This document shows, one piece after another, positions 17,356 to 35,126 of a DNA stretch of 54,218 bases. The DNA lies in assembly GCA_009784825.1 (NCBI GenBank), contig WQXO01000012.1, positions 1 through 54,218 of the forward strand, written 5' to 3'. Made by a program: the position numbers and the translations under genes. The notes under the pieces are model-generated. The model made no database searches. It was given only the letters and a program-made list of their open reading frames with translations, and had not been told where the DNA came from. The first letter of the stretch is position 1. Each line of letters opens with the position of its first letter. Source of the DNA: Oscillospiraceae bacterium. GTDB lineage: Bacteria; Bacillota; Clostridia; Oscillospirales; Ruminococcaceae.

Positions 17356-18831
17356 CTATAATATTATGCAAATCAGTCCGCCGCAACCGTCATTGATTAT
17401 TCGTTGAATGGTTTCCTGCAGTTTCAACCTTGCGTCACTCGGCATACGGTACAGCTTATTGTGCAGTCCCTCATTGACTAATTCGTGCAGGGATTTCCCG
17501 AAAATGTTGCTTTCCCAGATTTTTGTGGGGTTTTCCTCGAATTCTTTGAGCAGGTACATGATGAGTTCCTCGGATTGGCGTTCTGAGCCGACTACGGGAC
17601 TTACCTCGGTGGTTATATTAGCGGCAAGCATGTGTATACTCGGTGCAGCAGCCTTCAGTCTGACTCCATATTTCCCGCCCTGCTTAACAATTTCGGGTTC
17701 CTCTAATGTAAGCTCATCAATGCTCGGCATAACAATTCCGTAACCCGTCGCACTCACCTCGTCAAGAGCTGCTTTGACTTTTAGATACTTCTTCCTGATG
17801 TTGGCGAGTTCAATCATGCACGGCATTAAATCGCCCTCGTCCTTGAGTTCTAACCCGGTCATCTCGCCTAAAATCCGGTAGAATAATTCGTTTTTGAGCG
17901 TTACCGAAATGAACCCTGCACCCTTGCCTAAGTCAATGCTCTCTACTTCGCAATTTGTCACATGCTCACACTCGTTAACCTTGCAGGAAACATTCTTAAC
18001 CTGGTCGATACTGACGATGTTTGCCGCAGATTCTTTAAGTGCATTCCAGACCTCGGTTTTAAGCCAGTGACCTTTTTCTAAAACTGTCAGCCATTTCGGA
18101 ATTTTGATGTTGATTTCTTTAACAGGGAACTGTAAAAGGATTTCGGTCATAATCCCTTTTATCGTTTCCTCGTTTAAATCGAGGCAGTTAATCGGGATAA
18201 CCGGCTTACCGTACTTCTCCCACAACGTCTTAGCCATCTCCACCGAGTTTTCAGACGTGGGGTCTTTACAGTTAAGGACAACGATGTAGGGCTTCTTAAT
18301 CGCCTCTAACTCATTAATAACACGTTCTTCCGCTTCCTCATATTCCTCACGGGGAATATCGGTTATGCTCCCGTCGGTGGTAATCACCAGCCCGATTGTG
18401 GAATGTTCGTTAATGACCTTCTGTGTGCCTACTTCTGCCGCCATATTAAAAGGAATTTCGGTGTCGAACCACGGTGTCACCACCATTCTCGGCATTTCGT
18501 TTTCAATATAACCGATTGAGCTTGGCACGATATACCCGACACAGTCTATTAACCGCACATTCATCATAGCATTGTCTTCTAATTCTATGGTGATTGCTTC
18601 CTCGGGGATAAACTTAGGCTCGGTGGTCATAATCGTTTTTCCTGCCGCCGATTGCGGAAGTTCATCAACTGCACGCTCCTTGCGGAACTCGCTGTCTATA
18701 TTCGGAATAACGATATTGTGCATGAACTTACTTATAAAAGTAGATTTTCCGCTACGCACGGGGCCAACTACGCCGATGTATATATTCCCGTCGGTTCTCC
18801 TTGCAATGTCTTGATAGATTGAACTGTTCAT
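17356..18831 (-). CDS. spoIVA: Stage IV sporulation protein A (spore coat morphogenetic ATPase)
   Basis: SpoIVA self-assembles with ATP hydrolysis into the basement layer of the spore coat on the forespore surface. Length (491 residues) matches the family (492 in B. subtilis). The Walker A motif is GPVRSGKST (about residues 23-31), followed by the conserved LIDCVGYIVPSS region, and the C-terminus ends in the typical hydrophobic GCGGLICIIL used for membrane-surface attachment. The start follows a purine-rich ribosome site. It lies 14 bases after sipL and shares its sigma-E-like promoter. A strong hairpin follows. This gene is good evidence that the organism forms, or descends from formers of, endospores. 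Confidence 0.98.
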   Translation of the reverse strand: MNSSIYQDIARRTDGNIYIGVVGPVRSGKSTFISKFMHNIVIPNIDSEFRKERAVDELPQSAAGKTIMTTEPKFIPEEAITIELEDNAMMNVRLIDCVGYIVPSSIGYIENEMPRMVVTPWFDTEIPFNMAAEVGTQKVINEHSTIGLVITTDGSITDIPREEYEEAEERVINELEAIKKPYIVVLNCKDPTSENSVEMAKTLWEKYGKPVIPINCLDLNEETIKGIMTEILLQFPVKEINIKIPKWLTVLEKGHWLKTEVWNALKESAANIVSIDQVKNVSCKVNECEHVTNCEVESIDLGKGAGFISVTLKNELFYRILGEMTGLELKDEGDLMPCMIELANIRKKYLKVKAALDEVSATGYGIVMPSIDELTLEEPEIVKQGGKYGVRLKAAAPSIHMLAANITTEVSPVVGSERQSEELIMYLLKEFEENPTKIWESNIFGKSLHELVNEGLHNKLYRMPSDARLKLQETIQRIINDGCGGLICIIL

Positions 18832-18845
18832 TTACTCTCTCCCCC

Positions 18846-20468
18846 CTAAACTATCGGAATTAATAACATACACGGCTCTGTTATTTTTTCATTCTCAAGG
18901 TCGTTCTCGGTGATAATCGCTTCCGCTCCCGTGTTATAACGCTTTGCAATGCTCCACACATCTTCGTTTTCCTCGGCGTAATACAGTTTTAAAGCATAAT
19001 CTGTATCCTTTGTCTTGGGAGCGTCTTCGTTTACGGTGATTTCTTTTATTACCTCTATGGAATTTAACTGATAAAGGCAACCGTTCAATCTGAGTAAAAC
19101 CCGTAAATCAACTCTGTTATCGGAGGAAATGCTGTAGGTTACATTCGTCACCTGTAAATTCGGTTCAATGCTGTGGTTCTCCAATCCGTCAGAATTGAGG
19201 GAGGACCCTGTCGCTTCCGTGACTAATTCAAACGGTTCGGATTTTTCCACATAAACAGGAGTGTTATTATCTAATCTGCCGATGATTTGCATATTTGCTT
19301 GCCCGGTAATAACCAGCTCGTTCTCACCCTTAGCACGACATACGATATTACTGATGTCGCAACGCCCGTCATATACCGCTTCGAGATTGCCCTCGTTACA
19401 CTCAACCGTGCCTTTGAGGTTCAACTGCCGTTCGATAATCTGCGGCATAGTTTCGGTTTTGATAATCGTTTTTGAGAAATTACTCTCGAAATCGGTGGAA
19501 TACATATCCACGAGCGGCATAACCTCTTTTTCAAGGTGTGCCATCACTGTACAATTAACTGTTAAATCGCACGCAAACACTTGATTGGTGCCTGTGTCGC
19601 CGCTTGACTTAACCTCCAAATCGCAATCCATAACCGATAAATCAATGAAGCAAATGTGTCTGTCGGTTATTCCGTTAATGTCGATAATCTGGCTAATCGG
19701 GACTACTGCTTCCATGATTTCGGCTTCTTCGGCATAAGCTTTGTTTTCGGTATTTTCTTCAAAGCTGTTGTCCTCTTCTCGTTTCATAAGATACAGAGCC
19801 TTGACTTGTGCTTCACCCTTAACCACTATTTTATTAGCGATGATTTTATAATCGGTAACAACCACGCTTGCGTCGTGGTGGAGAATGCTGCTTATTCCAC
19901 CTCTGCCTGCACCTGTTTCAATATCTTCACGAGTTACGAATTGGCGGCTGGTTATCAGTTTTTCACCGCAATAGCTTAACGCTGTTTTGCGTGTTTGTGC
20001 CCCCATACCGGAAACACCGGTAATCATCTCGGTTTCTCTTGCACAGCTAACCTTAACCTTGCAGCTTACTGCTCCCCGAATATCTATTCTTCTGCCGGAA
20101 ACAGCACGGCAATTGCAATAGTCTGTTTTCGGTGAGATATACACTACGGCGTTCTCCGCAGGTTTAACAAGGTCAATTGTCTTTGAATAGGTATACCGCT
20201 GTTCTATACAGTTAACTCGGTTGTCATCACGGCTAAGGTAGAGAACTTTTATGTAAACTACACCGTCACAATAAAGCTGATTCCCCGAAATGCTGTATGA
20301 AATTACACATGGGGTCAGAGTACATTTGAGAACCTTGAAGATGTCGGGATAATAATCCGGCAGCACATAATCGAATTCTACCCCCTGTTCGATTTGCCCG
20401 TCATGAACGACTTCGTTGATGAAAACAGGCTCCTTAGATATTTCCAATCGCTGATTGTTTAAGTCCAT
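18846..20468 (-). CDS. sipL: SipL-like DUF3794/LysM spore coat protein
   Basis: This 540-residue protein has an N-terminal DUF3794 region (VFINEVVHDGQIEQGVEFDYVLPDYYPDIFKVL, in part QIEQGVEFDYVLPDYYPDI), repeated beta-rich modules, and a C-terminal LysM domain (LKLYYAEENEDVWSIAKRYN, in part EDVWSIAKRYN). In Clostridioides difficile, SipL has this architecture and binds SpoIVA through the LysM domain to build the coat. Here it lies directly upstream of spoIVA, 14 bases apart. A related family without a spore role exists in some clostridia, but the position and the sigma-E-like promoter support SipL. The start ATG follows GGAGGG by 5 bases. Confidence 0.9.
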   Translation of the reverse strand: MDLNNQRLEISKEPVFINEVVHDGQIEQGVEFDYVLPDYYPDIFKVLKCTLTPCVISYSISGNQLYCDGVVYIKVLYLSRDDNRVNCIEQRYTYSKTIDLVKPAENAVVYISPKTDYCNCRAVSGRRIDIRGAVSCKVKVSCARETEMITGVSGMGAQTRKTALSYCGEKLITSRQFVTREDIETGAGRGGISSILHHDASVVVTDYKIIANKIVVKGEAQVKALYLMKREEDNSFEENTENKAYAEEAEIMEAVVPISQIIDINGITDRHICFIDLSVMDCDLEVKSSGDTGTNQVFACDLTVNCTVMAHLEKEVMPLVDMYSTDFESNFSKTIIKTETMPQIIERQLNLKGTVECNEGNLEAVYDGRCDISNIVCRAKGENELVITGQANMQIIGRLDNNTPVYVEKSEPFELVTEATGSSLNSDGLENHSIEPNLQVTNVTYSISSDNRVDLRVLLRLNGCLYQLNSIEVIKEITVNEDAPKTKDTDYALKLYYAEENEDVWSIAKRYNTGAEAIITENDLENEKITEPCMLLIPIV

Positions 20469-20491
20469 ACCATACCCTCCGTTTTAGAATT

Positions 20492-20504
20492 CCGGCGTTG
20501 CCGG
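20492..20504. repeat. Short CCGGC-GTT-GCCGG hairpin before sipL
   Basis: A perfect 5-base stem with a 3-base loop, 24 bases upstream of the sipL ATG. A sister element, CCGGC-GAA-GCCGG, lies at 35149-35161, 23 bases upstream of another minus-strand start. Both have TT before them. A transcribed leader hairpin or a small dispersed repeat are both possible. Confidence 0.5.
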
Positions 20505-20562
20505 CTTGCCACCGTGTTAGGAGTTTGCTGAAGCAACCTCCCTTCACCGGTTGTCTACAGAA

Positions 20563-20591
20563 ATAATATGTTCGGGTTGTACAGAATATGC
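20563..20591 (-). promoter_or_regulatory. Sigma-E-like promoter of sipL-spoIVA
   Basis: On the minus strand GCATATT (20591-20585), 14 bases and CATATTAT (20570-20563) match the mother-cell sigma-E pattern (-35 near KMATATT, -10 near CATANNNT). It lies about 95 bases upstream of sipL, with no good sigma-A promoter nearby. This fits mother-cell expression of both coat genes. Confidence 0.65.
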
Positions 20592-20600
20592 TATTACAAT

Positions 20601-20636
20601 AAAAAAACGGGACACACTTTTGAAAAGTGCGTCCCG
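20601..20636 (-). terminator. Terminator of the che operon
   Basis: A 14-base inverted repeat (arms at 20608-20621 and 20623-20636, containing GGGAC and GTCCC) is followed on the minus strand by seven T. One position is a wobble pair. It ends cheB and lies between it and the sipL promoter. Confidence 0.85.
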
Positions 20637-20648
20637 CATTATGTTAAT

Positions 20649-21692
20649 TTATCTCAGTTTTTCCATTAATACCCCTGCGATGTTTTGCAATGGTGCTTGT
20701 TTCACAACTCCGCCTAATCTGAATGCCACTTCCGGCATACCGTAAACCACGCAGGTTTCCTTATCTTGCCCGATTGTGAATGCTCCGCTGTTTTTCATGT
20801 TGAGCATACCCTTAGCACCGTCACCGCCCATGCCTGTCAGAATAACACCGAGGGCGTTTGATTTAGCAACATCTGCTACACTGTCAAACAGTACATCAAC
20901 AGAAGGGCAATGCCCCGTGACTTTCTCGCCCCGCTGACTTGACACGTAATAACCCCGTGTGTCTTTCCTTAGCCGAAGATGGAATTCGCCTGCACCAAGG
21001 AGGATTAAACCTTGTGTGAGTCTGTCACCGTCCTGTGCTTCCCGAACCTCCATCTTGCATATTTTATTAAGACGGTCGGCATACATTTTAGTAAACCCTG
21101 CCGGCATATGCTGAACAATTACTGTTCCGGGAGTGTTTGCGGGCAGATTTTGCACCACCACTTGAATAGCCTCAGTTCCGCCTGTTGAAGCCCCGATGGC
21201 GATAACTTTATTGGTGTTTTTTCCCGGGTTGAGAATACTCATAACCTGCTGAGGTGCACTTGCTGCAGACGATGAGGGGGTAACAACCGCTCTTCCCGCA
21301 CCCACACGAGCGGTAGAAGCCACTCTCACCGCTTTACGCAACTCATGTGCGAACGCATCCATTTCTCTTGCTGACGGTTTTTTTATGTAATCAACTGCAC
21401 CTGCCGATATAGCCTCGAAAGCTTCTACAGCAGAAGAAGTGACCACAATTGCCGCAACTTTTTGAATGGGGAGCATTTTTTTGAGGAATTCAATCCCGTT
21501 CATTTTAGGCATCTCGACATCAAGAGTGATAACATCGGGCTTCAATTGAAGGATTTTATCCTTTGCGTCCATAGGGTCAATTGCAGTTCCGATAACCTCA
21601 ATATCACTTGCTTGATTCAATGCGGTTGAAATAACATTTCTGAATATAGCAGAATCGTCTACTACAAGAGTACGAATTTTTTTGTTAAGCAA
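20649..21692 (-). CDS. cheB: Chemotaxis response regulator / protein-glutamate methylesterase
   Basis: CheB removes methyl groups from chemoreceptor glutamates and deamidates glutamines. The receiver domain has the Asp pair (VVDDSAI), phospho-acceptor (VITLDVEMP) and the TSS/K positions (VVTSSA, YIKKP). A linker precedes the methylesterase domain with the catalytic Ser in GASTGGTEA, His in IVQHMPAGF and Asp in GMGGDGAKG. The start is TTG 21692, 9 bases from GGGGG. It is last in cheA-cheW-cheR-cheB, 17 bases after cheR, and ends with a strong terminator. Confidence 0.97.
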   Translation of the reverse strand: MLNKKIRTLVVDDSAIFRNVISTALNQASDIEVIGTAIDPMDAKDKILQLKPDVITLDVEMPKMNGIEFLKKMLPIQKVAAIVVTSSAVEAFEAISAGAVDYIKKPSAREMDAFAHELRKAVRVASTARVGAGRAVVTPSSSAASAPQQVMSILNPGKNTNKVIAIGASTGGTEAIQVVVQNLPANTPGTVIVQHMPAGFTKMYADRLNKICKMEVREAQDGDRLTQGLILLGAGEFHLRLRKDTRGYYVSSQRGEKVTGHCPSVDVLFDSVADVAKSNALGVILTGMGGDGAKGMLNMKNSGAFTIGQDKETCVVYGMPEVAFRLGGVVKQAPLQNIAGVLMEKLR

Positions 21693-21709
21693 TGTATATC
21701 GCCCCCAGT

Positions 21710-22531
21710 CTATTCTTCTTTGCGGTAAATTGCCGGTTTAACATATTTGAACTTGGTTTGGTCTCTCGGAACACTCTCCGCATGTCCCACGAACAGATAA
21801 CCACCCGGTGCAAGAACTTCATATAATCTGTTCACTAAATCAATTTTTGTCTGCATTTCAAAGTAAATCATTACGTTGCGGCAGAAAATTATATCAAACG
21901 GATATGTTTTGAACGGAATTCTGTCCATGAGGTTAAATGTCTTAAACTCGACACGCTTAGTAACCTCGGGAGAAATCTTGAAACAGTCATTGGGTTGGGG
22001 AATAAAGTATTTCTTCTTCCATGTTTCGGGGAGCTTTGACATTGATTCCTTATGATAAACCGCTTCCTTGCCGATGTTCAGCACTCTTTGAGAAATATCG
22101 GTCGCAAGTGTGGAAACGTTCCACATTGATGTTTTATGCCCGAAATACTCCATAAGCTGCATTATATTGGTATAAGGCTCTTCCCCGCTTGAGCTCGCCG
22201 CACTCCATAAATAAACCCGGCGGTCTTTTTTAACTTTCTCGAAATAGGGTAGGGCAACCTCACGCATAAACTGATAGTGTTCTTCTTCCCTCATAAAATA
22301 AGTATGGTTGGTGGTCAGCTTATTAAGAAGGTTAATCATTTCTGTGCCGCTTCTGTCTGCGAACACCATGTTCAAAAATGATGTAAAGTCGCTAAACCCT
22401 CTTTGTGTAATCATGTTGGAAAGCCTTCCCTCAATCAAAACACGCTTTTGCTTGAGGTTAATCCCGTATTTGTTTTCCATCATTTCATAAAGCCGTTTAA
22501 AATCGGCATCGGAAATTTGCATTGAAGCCAT
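21710..22531 (-). CDS. cheR: Chemotaxis protein methyltransferase
   Basis: CheR transfers methyl from SAM to receptor glutamates. The N-terminal helical domain (about residues 1-70) and C-terminal SAM domain are complete. Conserved pieces are LTTNHTYFMREEEHYQF, LWSAASSSGEEPYT, DIIFCRNVMIYF and GYLFVGHAESV. Length (273) is normal. The start ATG has AAAGGAG a few bases upstream. It lies between cheW and cheB in the operon. Confidence 0.97.
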   Translation of the reverse strand: MASMQISDADFKRLYEMMENKYGINLKQKRVLIEGRLSNMITQRGFSDFTSFLNMVFADRSGTEMINLLNKLTTNHTYFMREEEHYQFMREVALPYFEKVKKDRRVYLWSAASSSGEEPYTNIMQLMEYFGHKTSMWNVSTLATDISQRVLNIGKEAVYHKESMSKLPETWKKKYFIPQPNDCFKISPEVTKRVEFKTFNLMDRIPFKTYPFDIIFCRNVMIYFEMQTKIDLVNRLYEVLAPGGYLFVGHAESVPRDQTKFKYVKPAIYRKEE

Positions 22532-22564
22532 TGTATCTCTCCTTTTAAAATTAATGCTTTTTAA

Positions 22565-23095
22565 TTAAAACGCCAAATCATGGTCAAAAATCAACTTCTG
22601 GACATCTAACACAAGTTTAATCCCGTCATTCATCTCTAATATATAGTCGATAAATTTATTATTATTCACTTGGTTTAAGTCAGGTGTTTCTGCGACATGC
22701 TTCTCGGAAACCGAAGAAACGTCAATAACCTCATCAACGATTAACCCGACGGAAACCCCCTCATGCGATACTATAATAGTACAAGCTCGTTCGTCATACT
22801 CAATTTCCTCTTTCCCGAAGCAGGCACGTACATTAACCACGGGAACTACCTTACTGCGAACATTGATAATCCCTTTGATAAAGTCGGGGATTTCCATGCA
22901 CGGAACTCGTGTTATCATGGGAACGCCGATAATTTCAATGATATACGGAATTTCAATTCCATAGACCTGTTCGCCGATAAGAAAAGTCAATACCTTGGTA
23001 ATCTCGGCTTCTTTTTCTGTATGAGATAAACCCTTTTTGCCGGAGCTGGCTATATTCCCTTGTCTTGCCGCCATCATTTCTTTCACTTCGCTCAT
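22565..23095 (-). CDS. cheW: Chemotaxis coupling protein
   Basis: CheW links receptors to the CheA kinase in the polar array. Residues 30-175 form the SH3-like CheW domain (LTFLIGEQVYGIEIPYIIEII, in part EQVYGIEIPYIIEII, then FIKGIINVRSKVVPVVNVR). About 30 extra N-terminal residues are polar and probably disordered. It is 11 bases downstream of cheA. Confidence 0.95.
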   Translation of the reverse strand: MSEVKEMMAARQGNIASSGKKGLSHTEKEAEITKVLTFLIGEQVYGIEIPYIIEIIGVPMITRVPCMEIPDFIKGIINVRSKVVPVVNVRACFGKEEIEYDERACTIIVSHEGVSVGLIVDEVIDVSSVSEKHVAETPDLNQVNNNKFIDYILEMNDGIKLVLDVQKLIFDHDLAF

Positions 23096-23106
23096 GATAT
23101 ATCCTC

Positions 23107-25191
23107 CTAATTTTCGATAAGGTTGGCTACGTCAATAATCAACGCTATGCTTCCGTCACCCATAATCGTACAGCCGGAAAGCCCGCCGCCTTTAATGTTG
23201 TATCTGCTGAAATATGCAGGGAAGGGCTTGACAACCACCTGCTGTTCACCGAGCAGCTTATCCGAGAACAGACATACGCTTTTATTCTCAGTTTCGACAA
23301 GAAGCAGAATACCATCCTCGAAATTCGTAACATCGGTATAAATTCCGAAACGCTCATGCAAACGCATAATCGGGTAGCAGACCCCTCTAATCATAATCAT
23401 TTCGCCGCGTTGAGTATCACGGATAATTTGGTCTTCCGTGATTTTGAAGCTTTGTTTTATCATGGAAATCGGAATGGTGAATATAGTTCCGCCTACCTCA
23501 ATTTCCATGCCCTCTATAATTGCGAGGGTCAACGGGATTTTAATAATAAAATTGGTGCCCACGCCTAATTTACTCTCCACCATAATCGTGCCGCCGCATT
23601 TTTCGATGTTTTGTTTAACCACGTCCATGCCGACGCCACGCCCGGAATACTCGGTTACTGCCTCATTAGTCGAGAAGCCGGGTAAAAGAATAAGGTTGTG
23701 TGCTTCTCTCTCGGTGTAATCGGAACGAGATTTCATAAGCAAGCCGTTGCGTTCCGCTTTATCGAGAACTTTTTCTGCATTGATGCCGCCGCCGTCATCA
23801 CTTACGGTGATAATGACTTCTCCCGAAGCGTTGACCGCCGATAATTTGATGTGGGCTTTAGCCGACTTGCCGTTTTTGATTCTGTCCTCGACATTCTTCT
23901 CTATGCCGTGGTCCATGCAGTTACGGACAAGGTGCATGAGCGGGTCGTTAAGGTTATCAACAATCGACTTGTCAACCTCGGTGGTTTCACCCTCTATAAT
24001 GAGGTCAACGTCTTTCCCGAGAGCTTTTTTCATGTCACGGACGATACGGTTCATCTTCGAGAACGGACCTGACAGCGGAACCATACGAATGGACATGACA
24101 GTGTCTTGAAGCTCATCGGTCAACTTCCTAAGTTCACGTGCCGCTTTATGGAAGCTCTCAAGCTGTAATCCCTCAAGCTCGGGATTGGATATAACCATTG
24201 ACTCGGTGGTTATAATTTCACCGACTATATCATGCAATTGGTCTAATTTTGCAAGGTTTACACTGATTATACTCTGTTTTCCGCCGTGTGCCGCATTGAC
24301 TTTTTCGTTTACGGCGGCAACATTGTTGGGTGCGGGAGCGGATTCCACAGGAGCGGGTTTAGGTGCGATTTCAATAACCGCCTCCGGCTCAACAGGAGCA
24401 GATTCAATAATTTCTTCTTCTACTGTGCTGTCATCGCTGTCGTCACTTTCAATGAATTCATAAGACTCGATGTTTAAAGCACTTTCGATAGTTTTGAGGA
24501 CATTGTCCTTGTCATCTGCTTTAAATGTAATTGTGAACCCGTGTTCCGCAATGTAATGAGCGGTTTCGGGGTCTTTCTCCACGTCGGCGGGGAAAAAATC
24601 GGCAACATCGGTTTCTTCCCTTATTTTATTAAGCAACAAGAAAGCACGCAGGTTTTCCATTTCAATCCCGTGCTCAAATAGTATTCTAATGGTAGCTTGG
24701 TCGGAGCCTGCTTTTTTCCCGCCTGCCGGCTTTGCGGGAGCTGATGCTTTAGCGGGCTGACTTGCCGCCGCAGGAGCTTTTCCGGAAAGCATATCCGCAC
24801 CATGCTCAAGCTCGGTCAGTATCTCTGAAAAATCTGTGGGTATGTACTCGTCATCAGATTGGATTAAGACAATTTCCGCCTTAAACAAGTCAGACATACG
24901 GAAAACGAGGTCATACACAAATGCGGTGTCGGGCAGGTTTGTATTCTCCCTGATTAAGAAGAACATATCCTCGCCTTTATGTGAAAGTTTTTGCAAACTT
25001 TCAAAGCCCATCATAGCTGATGAACCTTTGACCGTGTGCATTATGCGGAAAATCTCATTAATATCTTCGTCTGTGAAAACCCCCGCCGCTTCTGTCCTCA
25101 GTAGAATTTCATCAAGCTGTTCAAGCAGAGTCTCGCTCTCAAACAAATATGCATCAAGCATTGCCTCCATACCGGGTTCAACTTTTGACAT
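23107..25191 (-). CDS. cheA: Chemotaxis histidine kinase
   Basis: CheA autophosphorylates on a His in its P1 domain and passes phosphate to CheY and CheB. The P1 His is in MHTVKGSSAMMG (His52 from ATG 25191). A P2-like region lies around residues 150-265, then an Ala/Pro/Glu-rich linker, P3 dimer helices, the P4 kinase (VRNCMDHGIEKN, VSDDGGGINAEKV, GRGVGMDVV) and a C-terminal CheW-like P5 domain. The start is ATG 25191 with AGGTGG 5 bases upstream; an in-frame GTG at 25200 is possible. The operon lacks cheY, cheC and cheD within the window. Confidence 0.97.
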   Translation of the reverse strand: MSKVEPGMEAMLDAYLFESETLLEQLDEILLRTEAAGVFTDEDINEIFRIMHTVKGSSAMMGFESLQKLSHKGEDMFFLIRENTNLPDTAFVYDLVFRMSDLFKAEIVLIQSDDEYIPTDFSEILTELEHGADMLSGKAPAAASQPAKASAPAKPAGGKKAGSDQATIRILFEHGIEMENLRAFLLLNKIREETDVADFFPADVEKDPETAHYIAEHGFTITFKADDKDNVLKTIESALNIESYEFIESDDSDDSTVEEEIIESAPVEPEAVIEIAPKPAPVESAPAPNNVAAVNEKVNAAHGGKQSIISVNLAKLDQLHDIVGEIITTESMVISNPELEGLQLESFHKAARELRKLTDELQDTVMSIRMVPLSGPFSKMNRIVRDMKKALGKDVDLIIEGETTEVDKSIVDNLNDPLMHLVRNCMDHGIEKNVEDRIKNGKSAKAHIKLSAVNASGEVIITVSDDGGGINAEKVLDKAERNGLLMKSRSDYTEREAHNLILLPGFSTNEAVTEYSGRGVGMDVVKQNIEKCGGTIMVESKLGVGTNFIIKIPLTLAIIEGMEIEVGGTIFTIPISMIKQSFKITEDQIIRDTQRGEMIMIRGVCYPIMRLHERFGIYTDVTNFEDGILLLVETENKSVCLFSDKLLGEQQVVVKPFPAYFSRYNIKGGGLSGCTIMGDGSIALIIDVANLIEN

Positions 25192-25200
25192 TCTTACCAC

Positions 25201-25373: not shown

Positions 25374-27200
25374 ATGGCAGGTGTACCGCAAATCACTAAC
25401 CCGCTACAGGGGAAGGGATATTCTTCCACCACGTTGAATAACCAACAGCGTCCCGGCGGAGAGCAGTTCGAGATAATTCAATTGACCAAGCCGCAAGCCC
25501 CTAAGGAATCGACGGACAGGGAATCGGGTAATCGAGGTTTGATGACCGACCGCAAGGACTTGTTGCCTATGACGGTCAAAACGCCTAAAGACCCGACTAT
25601 GGCGGTGGAAACGCTCAAACAGCTTATAAATTCGGAGCTTCTTGCCACGGCTAAGGCAAACGGCTATACCGAGTTATACGGTGAATTAGAAAAGCTTTCT
25701 AAATCAATATACCTTTCGGTGGACGAATTAGTTAAGGAACTGCTCAATCAGGAGAAGCAGACAACCATGTTCTCGAATCACCAATTGTTCGCCATGCTTC
25801 GGGAGTTGGCGGGCAGAGCGGTTGCTTCCGACAACCTTGAACTGCAAAACGCAATCGGCAATTTCCTTAAAGCTGTTAATTTTTCAATGAACCGTGACGA
25901 AATCTTAAACGCCCTTTCGGCAAATCTAAGGTTTCTTTCCGGATATTTCTCGCCGTCACAATCGTTAGCGGAAAAGCTCTCCTCCTTAGCTGATGCATGG
26001 GGAGGGGGGAATGCAAGTGGCAATTTTGAGATTTTAAAGGGTGAAACACTGAGTTTGCTGCATAATGTTTCTGAAAGCCTCTTAAATAATGAGAAAACGC
26101 AAATCCTGATTCCGCTTATTATTCATAATCTGTCAAGGTATAATACTAATGATTATATGCTGAAGGATTACTTTTCTGCACTATTGGTTCATATTCCGTC
26201 AAATGTAAGAAATGGATTTGTTTCTGCCTTTGATGCGTTTTTTGCAAGTTTGGGGCTTGATAAAGGAGGCTCACCCAATAATAATACTACAAATTCCGAA
26301 ATAAATCAAGCCCTTTTTTATAAGTTCCCCTCACTTTTCGGTGAAAAATTAAACCAATCGGGGAATACAGCACTCTCGGGAATGACACAAAATGACCTGT
26401 CTACAGGATTAATGAGCTTTCTGCTCGGGAAATCGAGCGGAATGGAGGCAATCACAACCATTTTGTCAAACCTGTTTAATAGCGGAGATACAGCGATGCA
26501 ATCAGCCCTTCGCTCGGATTTGGCACAAGCGAACAGCATAAGCACCTTGGTGGATTATCTCAATAATATATTATCTCTTCTTCCGGACGTGCCGGAGAGG
26601 CAAACACTTTTTGAAATGCTTTCCGAAACCATAGCAGGTATGGCGGAGAAGGGCGAACTCCCTCCCGAGGCGGCGGCACAGAACAAGTCGTCTTTAGAAG
26701 AACTCACGGCTTTTATAGAAAAGAATATCAATCACGCCGCCTTAAAAACCTTAAATAGCTTCAACGCCTCAAACCTCTTGCAAAGTTTGATTAATGCACC
26801 GGGGGTATTTACACCGTTAGCACACTATATTATACCGTTGCAATTCGGCGGTACCCGTGCATTCGGGGAGCTGTGGGTGGATAATGATGAGAAAAACGCC
26901 GCAGCAGGTGCAGACGGCAAGAAAAATATCCACCTGTTCTTAACTTTTGAGGTGGAAACCGTCGGCAGGTTTGAAACCGACTTATACGCTTCGGGGGCAG
27001 AGATTAACCTTGCCGTTTTGTATCCGGAGGGGTTTGAGGGTGAGATGAAGGCAATAAAAGAGAAAATTAATCGGATAATCGCAGACACCGGCTATCACGT
27101 TAAGGAATTCCGCACAGGCGTATTAAGAGAGCCGCACGATTTAACTCAAATATTCCCCCGGATTTTAGAAAAACGAGAAGGATTAGATGTAGTGGTGTAG
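25374..27200 (+). CDS. FliK-like flagellar hook-length control family protein
   Basis: It has 608 residues. The N-terminal half is Gln/Asn/Ser-rich and probably flexible, followed by a long helical region. The last 110 residues resemble the FliK C-terminal domain: YIIPLQFGGTRAFGELWV, HLFLTFEVETVGRFETDLYASG (in part EVETVGRFETDLYA) and a final VKEFRTGVL. The next gene encodes a free FlhB-C-like domain, which mirrors the ylqG-ylqH pair of Bacillus. The function of that pair is uncertain. GGGG lies about 10 bases before the ATG. Confidence 0.7.
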   Translation: MAGVPQITNPLQGKGYSSTTLNNQQRPGGEQFEIIQLTKPQAPKESTDRESGNRGLMTDRKDLLPMTVKTPKDPTMAVETLKQLINSELLATAKANGYTELYGELEKLSKSIYLSVDELVKELLNQEKQTTMFSNHQLFAMLRELAGRAVASDNLELQNAIGNFLKAVNFSMNRDEILNALSANLRFLSGYFSPSQSLAEKLSSLADAWGGGNASGNFEILKGETLSLLHNVSESLLNNEKTQILIPLIIHNLSRYNTNDYMLKDYFSALLVHIPSNVRNGFVSAFDAFFASLGLDKGGSPNNNTTNSEINQALFYKFPSLFGEKLNQSGNTALSGMTQNDLSTGLMSFLLGKSSGMEAITTILSNLFNSGDTAMQSALRSDLAQANSISTLVDYLNNILSLLPDVPERQTLFEMLSETIAGMAEKGELPPEAAAQNKSSLEELTAFIEKNINHAALKTLNSFNASNLLQSLINAPGVFTPLAHYIIPLQFGGTRAFGELWVDNDEKNAAAGADGKKNIHLFLTFEVETVGRFETDLYASGAEINLAVLYPEGFEGEMKAIKEKINRIIADTGYHVKEFRTGVLREPHDLTQIFPRILEKREGLDVVV

Positions 27201-27209
27201 GAGGAAATT

Positions 27210-27506
27210 ATGTCAGATTCAAAAAAAGCCAACTTCGGACAAAAGGCGGCGGTTGCCTTAAAATACAATCCCGACTTAAACTATGCACCTGTTGTGGTTG
27301 CCTCGGGGTTAGGACACCTTGCACAGAAAATCGTCAACATCGCCGACGAAAACGGCGTACCGATATACCGTGACGACTCCACAGCGGCACTTCTTGTTAT
27401 GCTTAATTCGGGTGAATCTGTCCCTCCGTCCCTGTATGCGGTAATCGCCGCAATATATGCAGAGGTTGTTATGACGGTGGAGAATGGAAAAAAAGATTCG
27501 ACATAA
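27210..27506 (+). CDS. Stand-alone FlhB cytoplasmic-domain-like protein (YlqH type)
   Basis: It matches the FlhB/EscU autocleaving C-terminal domain (AVALKYNPDLNYAPVVVASG, in part AVALKYNPD, then VNIADENGVPIYRDDSTAA). The membrane part and the NPTH self-cleavage motif of FlhB are absent. In type III export, FlhB-C sets substrate class with FliK. The gene follows the FliK-like gene by 9 bases with AGGAGG before its ATG. Its final codons (GAT TCG ACA TAA) contain the first 0A-like box of the region upstream of spo0A. Confidence 0.9.
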   Translation: MSDSKKANFGQKAAVALKYNPDLNYAPVVVASGLGHLAQKIVNIADENGVPIYRDDSTAALLVMLNSGESVPPSLYAVIAAIYAEVVMTVENGKKDST

Positions 27507-27515
27507 TTCGACAAA
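27497..27515 (-). promoter_or_regulatory. Two tandem Spo0A-binding (0A) boxes one helical turn apart
   Basis: TTCGACATA at 27497-27505 and TTCGACAAA at 27507-27515 lie with start points 10 bases apart. The second is the exact complement of the 0A consensus TTTGTCGAA; the first differs at one base. Tandem 0A boxes at 10-base spacing are the arrangement bound by Spo0A dimers. They are about 165 bases upstream of the spo0A -35. The first overlaps the stop of the preceding gene. Confidence 0.65.
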
Positions 27516-27674
27516 ATCATACCTACCGATAGTTTAAATGAAAACCGCATTACTACATTTTGATAAACAGTTGAAATAATCCGTCGCATAAACTATGAAT
27601 TATGGCTTTGCCGTCGAATAAAACCGCTTAATGTAAAACACTTAAAATATCTTTGTCATTTTTGAAAATTACTA

Positions 27675-27704
27675 TTGACTAATTGGAAAATTCTGTGCTA
27701 TTAT
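27675..27704 (+). promoter_or_regulatory. Sigma-A-type promoter of spo0A
   Basis: TTGACT (27675-27680), 18 bases and TATTAT (27699-27704). AGGAGG at 27737-27742 then serves the ATG at 27750. No sigma-H pattern was obvious. Confidence 0.65.
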
Positions 27705-27749
27705 AGGTTTAGAAAATTTTCGAAAAAATAATATACAGGAGGTCAAAAA

Positions 27750-28553
27750 ATGACAAAGCAAGTACGCGTCTTAATAGGAGATGACAGTGTAGAATCGGGG
27801 GTTACATGGGCGAGGACCTTAATGTCTAAAGGTATGTATGTAATAACAAGACAGAAAAACGGGCGTGTTATTCTCGATACAATCAAAGCCGACAAGGAGA
27901 AGTTCGATGTAATAATTATGGAAGCGAAAATGCCCGAGTTGGATGCAGTATCGCTTATTGCCGAAATAAACGACATGTCCGGCTATACTCCTTTGGTTAT
28001 CGTAATATCGAATTATGATTCGCCTCAAACTGAAAATGAGGTTATGGAGGCGGGAGCGAAGTATTACATGGTTAAGCCGTTTATGTCAACTGTTTTAGCC
28101 GACAGAATAGAAAAACTGCTTGACAACACTCCCGAGCGGATTAACCTCAAAAACGTGTCCTATAACATACACGAATCAGTTCCCGATAATATTGAATACG
28201 TTGTCACCGATATTATTCACCAAATCGGAATTCCCGCACATATAAAAGGTTATCATTACTTAAGGACTGCCATTCTTCTCTCGGTTGAGGATGCCGAAAT
28301 GATTAACTGCGTTACTAAATTGCTGTATCCTACTGTTGCTAAGCAGTATTCCACCACTTCTTCAAGGGTGGAGCGTGCAATCCGTCATGCAATTGAAATT
28401 GCGTGGGACAGGGGTGATGTCGAAACGCTTAACAGCTATTTTGGTTACACCATTCACACGGCAAAAGGTAAACCGACTAATTCTGAGTTTATTGCATTAA
28501 TCGCAGATAAACTGAAGCTTAAATTCAAAAGCACACTGTCTTATACAAAATAA
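27750..28553 (+). CDS. spo0A: Spo0A homologue with Glu at the phospho-acceptor position
   Basis: Spo0A is the master sporulation regulator. The C-terminal DNA-binding domain is canonical: TDIIHQIGIPAHIKGYHYLR (family VTxIIHxIGVPAHIKGYxYLR), SRVERAIRHAIEIAWDRG and GKPTNSEFIALIADKLKL. The N-terminal receiver keeps the acidic pair (GDDS, residues 11-12), a Ser at the switch Thr/Ser position (VISN) and the Lys (MVKP), but where Spo0A has DVLVLDIIMP it has DVIIMEAKMP: Glu58 (codon GAA at 27921) replaces the phosphorylated Asp. This may mimic phosphorylation or make the protein phosphorelay-independent. It follows a FlhB-like gene rather than spoIVB, its usual neighbour, so it may be a second copy. 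A terminator follows. Confidence 0.95.
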   Translation: MTKQVRVLIGDDSVESGVTWARTLMSKGMYVITRQKNGRVILDTIKADKEKFDVIIMEAKMPELDAVSLIAEINDMSGYTPLVIVISNYDSPQTENEVMEAGAKYYMVKPFMSTVLADRIEKLLDNTPERINLKNVSYNIHESVPDNIEYVVTDIIHQIGIPAHIKGYHYLRTAILLSVEDAEMINCVTKLLYPTVAKQYSTTSSRVERAIRHAIEIAWDRGDVETLNSYFGYTIHTAKGKPTNSEFIALIADKLKLKFKSTLSYTK

Positions 28554-28560
28554 AATAAAA

Positions 28561-28597
28561 GGCAGAGATTTGCAATAATGCAATCTCTGCCTTTTTT
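28561..28597. terminator. Bidirectional terminator after spo0A
   Basis: GGCAGAGATTTGCA (28561-28574) pairs with TGCAATCTCTGCC (28579-28591) with one bulge; a T-run follows and A-runs precede. It ends spo0A and the convergent gene at 28596. Confidence 0.9.
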
Positions 28598-29228
28598 ATA
28601 TTTCATTTAAAACATTTAATATTTTTTCTGAACATCTGTTAATAAAATCGGTTAATATACCATTGGTGAAATAGTTTATTTGCCCGGTTGGTTTTGTATT
28701 GGTTTCAAAATAACGCAGTGTGTTATCCCGCCATGTTTTTATTTCATATTCAGTCAGCGAACCGAAGTCAAACGCTGTGCTTTTTTCCAAATACCCCCAA
28801 ACATCGGATTTTATATCGAACTTTTCAAAAAAATCAAACTCAAAAAGTGCTGCATCGCTGTTGTAAACCTCTCTGCGGGTATCCCACGTCATGCCTTCTT
28901 CCGAATATGCTTGTTCAAATGCCGAGTATACCATTTCTTTAAAATATATGTCTGTTAGAATATGCACACCGTAGCCTAAGTAAAAATCGCTGTATTCATC
29001 TTCTTTATGCTCGATTATAAAGTCTTTTGCCGTGTTTTCCCAAATCGTGAAATCCCGGTTTGTGAAGTGGGCTTTCAGGTGTTCTTCGTGTTTGTCGGTT
29101 TCAATATACGGCAAAAGGTGCATGGAATCAGGCGAAATTGTGCCTAAGTAAAAGTTCGCCTTATCGTTAACGTCAAAAGCGGTTAGAATCTTTTTCGCCA
29201 CACAAAAGTGAATAATCGGCATTGCCAT
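28596..29228 (-). CDS. Zinc-dependent phospholipase C family-like protein
   Basis: The N-terminus MPIIHFCVAKKIL followed by FYLGTISPDSMH is the entry motif of the zinc-dependent phospholipase C-like fold (Pfam Zn_dep_PLPC). Further His residues (HEEHLKAHF and YGVHILTDIYF) fit metal ligands of the all-helical domain. It has no signal peptide, so a cytoplasmic hydrolase is more likely than a secreted toxin. Length is 210 residues. The start has a GAGG-like site. Substrate unknown. Confidence 0.72.
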   Translation of the reverse strand: MAMPIIHFCVAKKILTAFDVNDKANFYLGTISPDSMHLLPYIETDKHEEHLKAHFTNRDFTIWENTAKDFIIEHKEDEYSDFYLGYGVHILTDIYFKEMVYSAFEQAYSEEGMTWDTRREVYNSDAALFEFDFFEKFDIKSDVWGYLEKSTAFDFGSLTEYEIKTWRDNTLRYFETNTKPTGQINYFTNGILTDFINRCSEKILNVLNEI

Positions 29229-32930: not shown

Positions 32931-33730
32931 TTATTCACCTTTATTCGTGAGTTTTTTCACGCTGTTATCCTGCGACAAAACACGCATTTGTGAAATAGCG
33001 ATTTTATTTAGCTTTTTAAGCCGTTCGGATTGCGGTATACCGTCATTAATTAACTCGGCATTAAGGCTTTCCATGTTTGATAAACAGACAAGCTGTGAAA
33101 TGTTTGCATAATCCCGAATGTTGCCTTTCTTTCCGGGACTGCTGTCACGCCACTGCTTTGCGGTCATGCCGAATAAAGCCATATTCAAAACATCCGCTTC
33201 GGTTGCGTAGATGTGGTTTATTTGCCCTGCGTTCAGCTTCGGCGGTATAAGGTTTTCCTTGATTGCGTCCGTATGTATACGATAGTTTATTTTAGCAAGA
33301 TTGCGTTTAATATCCCAGCCAAGCTGTCGCATTTCTTCGTCTTTCATGCGTTGAAATTCTCGGATTATTCGGCGTTAATCCACATACCAAACTCAAAAGC
33401 GATGTCCTTGTGAGCATAAGTGCCGCCGTAACGTCCGGCGGTTGCTTTAATTCCGATTGCGTTTGTTGCCTGCACCCATTCTTTAACGCTTACTTTATAA
33501 CTATTCAGACCTGCTTGACTTTTAATTATGGCGAATTCGCCATAATTAAAATCGGGGTTGTAGATACTTTCCCAAATCCCCAAAAATTCAATAGTGTTCC
33601 TGTTTCTAAGCCAATCAGATATGAAAAAATCACCGTCTTTGGCTTTTATCATGTCGGTCAGCGATATATAATCGTTGTCATTAATAGTCAAAACGGTTAT
33701 TTCTTGCCCCTGCACAACTAATTTGCCCAT
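32931..33730 (-). pseudogene. KilA-N domain protein, disrupted by a small deletion
   Basis: Two adjacent frames belong to one gene. The first (33730 down to 33365) starts after GGGGGGA and carries the KilA-N domain (YISLTDMIKAKDGDFFISDWLRNRN in part ISLTDMIKAKDG, and GRYGGTYAHKDIAFEFGMWINAE) then stops. The second (ending at 32931) continues with EFQRMKDEEMRQLGWDIKRN and ESLNAELINDG, the usual second half. In intact relatives, the WI(S/N)(A/P)E block is followed by about F-x-L-Y-L-I then EFQRMKDEE. That piece is missing and the frame shifts near 33350-33370, consistent with a loss of about 14 bases. KilA-N proteins are phage or mobile-element DNA-binding proteins; this one is a remnant unless frameshifting restores it. 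Confidence 0.85.
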
Positions 33731-33749
33731 GTTTTCCCCCCGTAAAATC

Positions 33750-35126
33750 CTATTCCATAATCCCCTCAATATAACCAATCATACTCCCTGTATTCGCCGC
33801 AAATATATTATTAGCGAACAGAATATCCGTAACACCGTGTTCGGTTAAATAATCCACCGCCTTATACGGGAAATACCGAATATCAATAACAATTATCTCC
33901 TCAAATGAACCGGTGAAAAACGGCACAAGTGCGTTACCGAAGCTGTCCTTGAATATTGCGAGCCGCCGTCCGTTGTTGACGTCGGTTTTTATATGGGTGA
34001 TTTTATTATCCCCGCCCATGAATATGCAATAAGACATGCCCACACTCTGACCGATGAACAGCGATGAATTAATCGCAACCGTAGGGTTGTCGTAATTATA
34101 ATAGGTCGTGGTATAGCTGTTGGGCGGCTTGTAATATATGAAATCCTCGGGATTGTTCTTCAAGCTTATATCGCCGGAATATCCGTACATCGTGCCCACA
34201 TACCCCGGAATAACCACGGTTTCATACTCTGACAAGGGTATAAACGGCACACCCGCAGTTTTAGCGAATTCCTCCGCCGCATAATACGCTCCGAGTGCCG
34301 CCCAGTGGTGGTCGGTTCTGAGGTAAATGTCCTCATTAACACGGGCGGAAAGTGCCGAATATATATTAACAGGTGTTACGTTATGCAGGAATGAATTGAT
34401 ATTATTGGTATTCGCACGCTGGTCACTGCTTAAATGGCGGTAATTCCTCGGACAGTAGAACTCTATCGGTGTAGGAATGACCATGCTGTACACGTTCATG
34501 TCTAATCTGTCGGCATAAGCGTTCATCGCCCTTGCATACCGCTCACCCATTGCATAGCTCCCGCCGAACAGCATAAGCCCTCTGTTTTGATAAACAAGAA
34601 TACCATTGTTACCTATATCTGCCACACCGTCGGGAACGTCGTTGGTGTTTTCACCGATTACACCATCCCATGCGGGGTCGTCCGTCGGTATATCGGAAAT
34701 ATCAATGTTATCAGGATTATCGAGATTGACGGAATTAGTGGTGCTGGTGGGATTATTGGGGGTGACAGGATTATCTTGAATATACGGATTATTCGGGAGA
34801 ACGGGGTTTTCGGGATTGTCCGGATTGTCGGCGATTACTACGTTATGGAGTGTCACCCCGTCAAAGCTGATTCCCGCCTTGTCTTTTAAATAAGCCGAGG
34901 TATCGGTTATGTTATCCCGCATAGGAACAGTGTCGGAGAAATATGTGCTTAAATCCCGTGTAAAATCTCCCGAAAACAAAGCGGCAAACGAGAATTCCGG
35001 GAACGGTTCAAGCTCCCTCCGCTCGGTTTCGGAGGTTTCGGGGCGTGGTGCAAACAGCAATAACGGACTGACAACCGCTAAAACAAGAATGAACAACGCA
35101 ATATTCAAAGCATTTGTTTTTTTCAT
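33750..35126 (-). CDS. DHHW-family protein, partner of the MBOAT acyltransferase
   Basis: The 458-residue protein has an N-terminal membrane anchor (NIALFILVLAVVSPLLLF) and an extracellular domain similar to AlgX/AlgJ/DHHW proteins. The DHHW hallmark is LRTDHHW (about residue 270), with downstream KDSFGNALVP holding the Ser/Asn of the SGNH-like active site. These proteins work with an MBOAT protein to O-acylate polysaccharides outside the membrane. Unusual: residues about 98-150 are a low-complexity Asn/Pro/Asp stretch (NPDNPENPVLPNNP and similar repeats), probably a flexible spacer. The MBOAT gene lies just upstream. Confidence 0.88.
   Translation of the reverse strand: MKKTNALNIALFILVLAVVSPLLLFAPRPETSETERRELEPFPEFSFAALFSGDFTRDLSTYFSDTVPMRDNITDTSAYLKDKAGISFDGVTLHNVVIADNPDNPENPVLPNNPYIQDNPVTPNNPTSTTNSVNLDNPDNIDISDIPTDDPAWDGVIGENTNDVPDGVADIGNNGILVYQNRGLMLFGGSYAMGERYARAMNAYADRLDMNVYSMVIPTPIEFYCPRNYRHLSSDQRANTNNINSFLHNVTPVNIYSALSARVNEDIYLRTDHHWAALGAYYAAEEFAKTAGVPFIPLSEYETVVIPGYVGTMYGYSGDISLKNNPEDFIYYKPPNSYTTTYYNYDNPTVAINSSLFIGQSVGMSYCIFMGGDNKITHIKTDVNNGRRLAIFKDSFGNALVPFFTGSFEEIIVIDIRYFPYKAVDYLTEHGVTDILFANNIFAANTGSMIGYIEGIME

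Follow-up and report, generated by a model that had tools for sequence, protein, structure and literature searches.

Endospore-forming bacteria start sporulation via Spo0A, which is phosphorylated at a conserved aspartate, as summarized in a recent review (PMC11210211). In Bacillus subtilis, Spo0E is described as one of the phosphatases that reverse this phosphorylation (PMC3533761), and the core of the 0A box is given as TGTCGAA (PMC3485338). Receivers without the aspartate are also known. Glu is reported as the commonest replacement of Asp in receivers generally (26%), and in the parts consulted of the same article Spo0A is named for a laboratory substitution only (PMC4395418). Glu is reported to partly activate many response regulators (PMC12632262). 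For Spo0A, Asp-to-Glu alone is stated to be insufficient for activation (Maule et al., citing Green 1991; PMC4395418). Here we describe a spo0A gene whose product carries Glu at the acceptor position.

The spo0A gene and its acceptor position

The window, that is, the whole stretch of DNA analysed here, spans 54,218 nucleotides (contig WQXO01000012.1, assembly GCA_009784825.1, Oscillospiraceae bacterium). Its spo0A encodes a protein of 267 amino acids (Table 1). The protein matched the Spo0A profile TIGR02875 over residues 4-260 at 255.6 bits (curated cut-off 200), indicating a full-length Spo0A. The Pfam receiver domain Response_reg (PF00072) was matched by residues 7-120 at 54.2 bits (cut-off 30.2) and Spo0A_C (PF08769) by residues 152-255 at 155.5 bits (cut-off 25). 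Further, the Spo0A_C domain matched the solved Spo0A domains 1fc3 and 1lq1 with E-values of 2.7e-46 and 1.7e-44, and the first-pass annotation, made from the sequence, was right to call the DNA-binding half a textbook Spo0A.

Table 1. Features of the window discussed in the text
Feature	Position	Strand	Evidence
SpoIVA, spore coat ATPase	17356..18831	-	profile match
SipL-like (SipL/SPOCS domains, weak LysM), adjoins spoIVA	18846..20468	-	domain match
608-aa protein, no Pfam match	25374..27200	+	Pfam scan
FlhB C-terminal-domain protein (PF01312), 98 aa, upstream neighbour of spo0A	27210..27506	+	Pfam
Two exact 0A-box cores (TTCGACA = TGTCGAA on the other strand), starts 27497 and 27507	27497..27513	-	sequence match
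Sigma-70-type (sigma-A-like) promoter-like site, TTGACT-18-TATTAT	27675..27704	+	consensus match only
spo0A, Glu58 receiver and Spo0A_C DNA-binding domain	27750..28553	+	ORF, profile matches, AlphaFold2 model
Asp11-Asp12 acidic pair, intact	27780..27785	+	translation, alignment
Glu58 codon GAA, phospho-acceptor Asp position	27921..27923	+	sequence, alignments, model
Ser87 (T/S position), intact in window protein	28008..28010	+	alignment
Lys109 (catalytic Lys position), intact in window protein	28074..28076	+	alignment
Spo0A_C DNA-binding domain, slow evolution in family	28203..28514	+	profile match, tree steps

The same annotation had placed Glu at the phospho-acceptor position in a receiver that otherwise retains its acidic pair, Ser and Lys. 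The codon, the alignments and the structural model agreed on Glu58, and the protein keeps D11, D12, S87, Y106 and K109. When DVIIMEAKMPELDA of the window protein was aligned over DVVILDIIMPHLDG-type Spo0As, Asp65 and Pro110 were in register, which identifies E58 as the acceptor position; the alignment with Spo0A homologues, proposed earlier as a check, likewise put Glu58 in the acceptor column. Thus, the window protein lacks the phosphorylatable Asp of Spo0A. Given that D11, D12, S87 and K109 are kept, metal binding may remain.

An AlphaFold2 model of the protein, built from 73 sequences, had a mean pLDDT of 89.7 (mostly 93-98 in the receiver blocks) and a pTM of 0.53. The modelled receiver forms a complete five-strand fold (residues 6-9, 30-33, 54-58, 82-87 and 105-108) alternating with five helices, in which Glu58 lies at the end of strand 3, S87 at the end of strand 4 and K109 after strand 5. 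The linker (residues 129-139) had a pLDDT below 50, and because of the low pTM the relative placing of the two domains in the model is not fixed.

Glu58 might be an artefact of alignment or assembly, the real acceptor being another Asp nearby, for instance Asp65, or the codon having been misread, and the gene does come from a single assembly of 32 contigs. However, the register is ungapped, Asp65 and Pro110 are conserved in both the Asp and the Glu groups, the model places residue 58 at the end of a strand and all 24 nearest homologues (P0002-P0025) also have Glu, so that this explanation is almost certainly wrong. The 24 homologues rule out a sequencing error, and the recurrence of Glu across many homologues rules out a unique oddity of one genome. 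In the same 24 relatives, position 87 is Ala (23) or Val (1), and position 109 is Arg in the Asp-type sister clade.

From its place after flagellar-type genes instead of spoIVB, the gene had been suspected of being a second Spo0A. This suspicion was not upheld, as no other protein in the 98.7%-complete genome passes the TIGR02875 cut-off and the neighbourhood is uninformative. The search of the window's own genome for an Asp-type Spo0A found none. The sole other Spo0A_C protein found there (C2:13338-14144, equal to L002:985-1791; 82.9 bits against the TIGR02875 cut-off of 200) is a paralogue with a divergent receiver joined to Spo0A_C, whose acceptor strand AIILEIEL has Glu; its relative in the genome of locus L040 (L150) has Asp in AIILDLEL. 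L040 and L042 have the window's order of genes, in which spo0A comes after the 98-aa FlhB protein and the 608-aa protein; long proteins related to the latter precede spo0A in both. A spoIVB-like gene lies directly upstream of spo0A in 15 of 41 Glu loci and 44 of 131 Asp loci (spoIVB-like denotes membership of one group of upstream proteins; the SGSP motif is present in 80 of its 84 members, and in genome G132 the group coincides with a Peptidase_S55 match). Since so few Asp loci have this neighbour and the window's arrangement is shared, gene location says little about residue 58.

Many genomes of the family (e.g., L153-L158, L160, L162-L166) encode extra Spo0A_C proteins with N-terminal parts far from a receiver; their residues at the acceptor column vary, and the alignment there is unsure. 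Several genomes have more than one Spo0A, such as G326 (Lapin-002__bin94) with a Glu copy (L097) and an Asp copy (L109), and the nine Spo0A_C matches of G231 include fragments. Elsewhere in the window, two opposite frames (33365-33778, minus strand; 33410-33721, plus strand) share FNYGEFAIIK, a possible sign of an inverted repeat.

Distribution and evolution of residue 58

Among the best 120 of 8000 scored homologues, the 119 besides the query had Glu in 69, Asp in 49 and Ala in one. The fetched Spo0A loci, including the window's own, gave Asp 85 and Glu 25 (n = 110, some genomes being present twice); one of the six search patterns behind loci L040-L119 held the Glu motif, so this set may lean to Glu. 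A sample of the Ruminococcus albus family (99 readable of 100 fetched regions) had Asp 76, Glu 21, Asn 1 and Ser 1, and leans towards the query because the regions were taken from the higher-scoring among the 262 genomes that matched (of 297). In a class-wide control set (90 Spo0A frames, of which some share one genome) the counts were Asp 84 and Glu 6, with the Glu rows falling in two other families of the class. Given the homologue, locus and family counts against this control, Glu at site 58 is not due to chance. The controls L329, L333, L335 and L348-L350 combine a Glu acceptor with loss of the second acidic residue (DH, DK), and Spo0E was not found for them.

Across 422 sequences of the family, site 58 was D in 251, E in 167, S in two, N in one and A in one. 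An acid is thus present in 418 of 422, and Glu accounts for 167 of the 171 non-Asp residues. At least five genus groups (g1, g35, g63, g69 and g71) contain both types. All five genomes sampled from the genus to which the window belongs show at least one receiver loss: E58 in the window, N11, E58 and A87 in G015 and G204, and A87 and R109 in G132 and G258. Judging by isolate names, some of the nearest metagenome-assembled relatives presumably come from termite guts. Glu also occurs in a named isolate, Paludicola sp. MB14-C6 (P0171), for which no spore phenotype turned up among the papers listed in a literature search. The name of Ruminococcus bromii, which is described as a spore former (PMC5814915), was absent among the 120 matches listed by a second protein search.

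We built a FastTree tree of 512 unique Spo0As (from 539 rows) with the six catalytic columns left out. The tree excludes L029, L082 and L201, whose frames are short, as well as L002 and, apart from L151 and L159, the divergent paralogues in the range L150-L169; loci L120-L149 were left out of the analysis. Site 58 required a minimum of 46 changes on this tree, 42 of them between Asp and Glu. One parsimony resolution under one rooting gave 27 changes from D to E, 15 from E to D and 4 to other residues, and 23 independent D/E contrasts lay on supported branches. A two-residue alphabet reached dozens of times indicates conservation of the charge but not of the aspartate itself. Other acidic positions of the family, by contrast, drift in different directions: at site 12, the 98 readable non-D residues were mostly N (64), with E at 24; at site 53, E made up 18 of 59 non-D residues, and N, Q and others were also seen.

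Divergence was allowed for by comparing subsets with equal induced tree length. In the 119 genome-drawn family rows (tree length 40.0), site 58 changed 13 times and site 109 changed 19 times; in the 90 class controls (39.6), each of the two sites changed twice. Over all 422 family rows, which are the better-scoring matches to the query, sites 58 and 109 had the largest family-to-control ratios of steps after column 79, which is hardly filled in the controls. In the family, a site of the receiver took 73.3 parsimony steps on average and a site of the DNA-binding part 25.3; in the controls, where the receiver is the faster part too, the values were 23.4 and 11.6. The canonical set (acid 11, acid 12, Asp 58, Ser/Thr 87 and Lys 109) was intact in 39 of 91 unique family rows (L170-L269) and in 71 of 90 control rows. 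Among the genome-drawn family rows it was intact in 59 of 119, and phosphorylation may for this reason persist in part of the family.

Tests on independent pairs gave no significant co-variation between Glu58 and a lost D12, K109 or S87 (median p of 0.63, 0.73 and 0.38, respectively). A compensation of side-chain length, pairing Glu58 with Lys109 and Asp58 with Arg109, looked neat in the 60 nearest rows, in which the exceptions were P0028 (Asp-Lys) and P0058 (Ala-Arg), but it did not extend to the family as a whole (E-R 24, D-K 184). Two other receiver residues were conserved in the 422 family sequences and not in the class controls: Lys36, just before helix 2 (K 363, R 39), and Glu95, in helix 4 of the model (E 388, Q 28). 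Together they form a possible family-specific receiver interface.

Spore genes, 0A boxes and Spo0E

The genome that carries the window is 98.74% complete and holds spore developmental genes. In addition to SpoIVA and the SipL-like protein (Table 1), it encodes a full-length SpoIIE below the curated cut-off, SpoIVB at C5:47211 (a 204-aa piece below the TIGR02860 cut-off), SpoIIR, SASP and SigG. A spoIIAA-spoIIAB-sigF operon lies at C9, where SpoIIAA and SpoIIAB were identified by eye and sigF scored 189.6 bits, below the cut-off of 321. In the window, spoIVA and the sipL-like gene directly adjoin a cheB-cheR-cheW-cheA cluster (17356-25200).

We scanned 61 family genomes, of which 27 were picked for a Glu-type Spo0A, 32 for Asp and two for Asn or Ser; some picked for Glu, such as G224, hold an Asp copy too. 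SpoIIE was present in 59 at E < 1e-30, never over the cut-off (G118 and G300 matched weakly), SASP in 60 and SpoIIR in 43; SpoIVA was found in 67 of 71 genomes, some counted twice via loci. The idea that Glu marks the loss of sporulation was rejected, because SpoIIR occurred in 20 of 27 Glu types and 21 of 32 Asp types (p 0.58).

Exact 0A-box cores were present in the 400 bp preceding spo0A at 20 of 42 Glu loci and 68 of 151 Asp loci (loci not made unique). Their density upstream was 1.43 (Glu) and 1.39 (Asp) per kb against backgrounds of 0.14 and 0.12, about tenfold. The window's two cores are 10 bp apart and overlap the end of the upstream gene. When only loci that differ in their upstream sequence were counted, such tandem boxes (one exact, the other with at most one mismatch) were present at 5 of 40 Glu loci and 11 of 142 Asp loci. 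Further, the spoIIAA-AB-sigF operon of the window's own genome has a core immediately upstream of spoIIAA, in the context AATTTGTCGAAATCG; 0A boxes are thus present, as sequence matches, at both spo0A's own promoter and the spoIIA operon. At spoIIE, most regions had no exact core: it was found in 2 of 13 regions of Glu types and 1 of 5 of Asp types, and that of the window's own genome was not near the start. Sigma-70-type sites numbered nine in 27300-28800, where 4.3 were expected.

These results bear on whether the receiver is a relic in a decaying Spo0A of a lineage that is losing sporulation. SpoIIR was not found in 18 of the 61 family genomes, and several spore genes are listed as missing from Ruminococcus albus 7 (PMC3533761). 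Against decay stand the spore genes and the spoIIA operon of the window's own genome, the similar frequency of SpoIIR in Glu and Asp types, the constraint on the DNA-binding domain and the retention of 0A boxes; moreover, drift free of selection would not yield Glu almost exclusively. We consider decay very improbable, and the window Spo0A, judged from its sequence, is probably a working protein.

An HMM scan for the Spo0E family (PF09388) matched none of the 61 family genomes, including that of the window (G000), and matched 34 of 49 class genomes and the B. subtilis control. The Spo0E-type phosphatase of a canonical phospho-regulated Spo0A system was accordingly not found in the window genome, although for a family of 42 residues the lack of a match in an HMM scan tells less than a match would. 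All 34 class genomes with Spo0E have an intact catalytic set; the 15 without it divide into seven intact and eight broken sets, six of the broken ones being Glu types (Fisher 1.4e-5 for Spo0E against an intact set, kinship ignored). Because Spo0E is missing equally in Asp types of the family and in 7 of 41 intact-set class genomes, its absence is a family trait and not a consequence of Glu.

Glu58 could be a true phosphomimetic gained lineage by lineage, so that Glu types would be constitutive and Asp types phosphate-switched. The reported partial activation of many response regulators by Glu (PMC12632262), the near-exclusive use of Glu among non-Asp residues and the presence of S87 and K109 in the window protein, which could hold a mimic, all favour this. 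It would, however, need dozens of switches between constitutive and regulated states, with about 15 reversals on one resolution. Further, Asp58 rows often carry another loss (38 of 97 in the family against 13 of 84 in the controls), S87 is lost in all 24 nearest Glu relatives and no Spo0E was found in the family genomes tested, and we regard the proposal as unlikely. Alternatively, Spo0A might still be phosphorylated by orphan kinases, on Glu58 or on another residue such as Asp11 or Asp12. Asp11/Asp12, Ser87 and Lys109 are intact in the window protein, and phosphorylation of Glu is considered possible, with no case known in bacterial signalling according to the text consulted of Maule et al. 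(PMC4395418). The repeated loss of D12, S87 and K109 in relatives and the failure to find the Spo0E phosphatase family in 61 genomes both speak against continued phosphorylation, which we hold to be improbable.

Proposed regulation and relation to known systems

Our main reading, to which we assign a probability of roughly 60%, is that the window encodes the orthologous Spo0A of a spore-gene-bearing member of the Ruminococcus albus family, that its receiver is an aspartate-less (pseudo-)receiver, that the phospho-switch is no longer under strict selection in the family while position 58 is held as an acid, and that activity is probably set by expression via autoregulation. The proposed mechanism would start from what the sequence indicates, namely that the acceptor Asp is absent and that the DNA-binding domain, the 0A boxes and the spore genes are kept. 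The acid at position 58 would then keep the receiver competent to dimerize and to bind DNA without phosphate. The decision to sporulate would consist in the amount of Spo0A, autoregulated at the 0A boxes, perhaps with unknown partners. For the family, the scheme would take in the drift of the catalytic Lys, mostly to Arg, the drift of the Ser/Thr and second acidic positions, and the lack of detectable Spo0E.

The first-pass annotation had raised the possibility that Glu mimics the phosphorylated state, in which case entry into sporulation would be independent of a phosphorelay and controlled by expression level. Loss of the obligatory aspartyl-phosphate switch remains the likeliest explanation and, with 0A boxes upstream, expression control is plausible; the simple account of Glu as a phosphate mimic needs correction. 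As an explanation for one gene, it fits poorly with dozens of changes between Asp and Glu and with Asp-type sisters that lack the catalytic Lys. So many changes between the two residues point to an equivalence of Asp and Glu in the family, which favours a structural charge over a strict phosphomimic. More tentatively, and at somewhat less than even odds, the whole family may have uncoupled Spo0A from phosphorylation: residue 58 would serve as a fixed negative charge, with Asp and Glu functionally equal and Spo0E gone, and cells would enter sporulation according to how much they contain of an autoregulated Spo0A that is active by itself.

The family is large and includes many gut bacteria; it has repeatedly dispensed with the acceptor aspartate and yet keeps its spore genes. 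If Spo0A works without phosphate there, a second regulatory logic for sporulation entry would exist, and a search for sporulation kinases in the family may be misdirected. Natural pairs of sister species with Asp and Glu provide a ready-made test of the role of the acceptor residue.

No natural Glu-type Spo0A was named among the papers listed in searches of the open-access literature. Natural Glu receivers are known in general, and a Glu-type Spo0A is apparently new within that literature. A natural Glu acceptor is shared with plant pseudo-response regulators and the Rim15p receivers of Ascomycota, as described in the article consulted (PMC12632262). Those receivers differ in being eukaryotic and in having other outputs, and are not known to be joined to a Spo0A_C domain. 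Compared with Spo0A as defined by TIGR02875, the window protein has the same full-length two-domain layout, a DNA-binding domain like 1fc3 and 1lq1, and 0A boxes at its own gene and at spoIIA; it differs in its Glu acceptor, in that no Spo0E was found in its genome and in its position after a flagellar-type gene instead of spoIVB. With aspartate-less receivers such as ChxR and RitR it shares a receiver fold without a phosphorylatable Asp. Unlike these, the Spo0A site of the family toggles, and does so almost solely between Asp and Glu.
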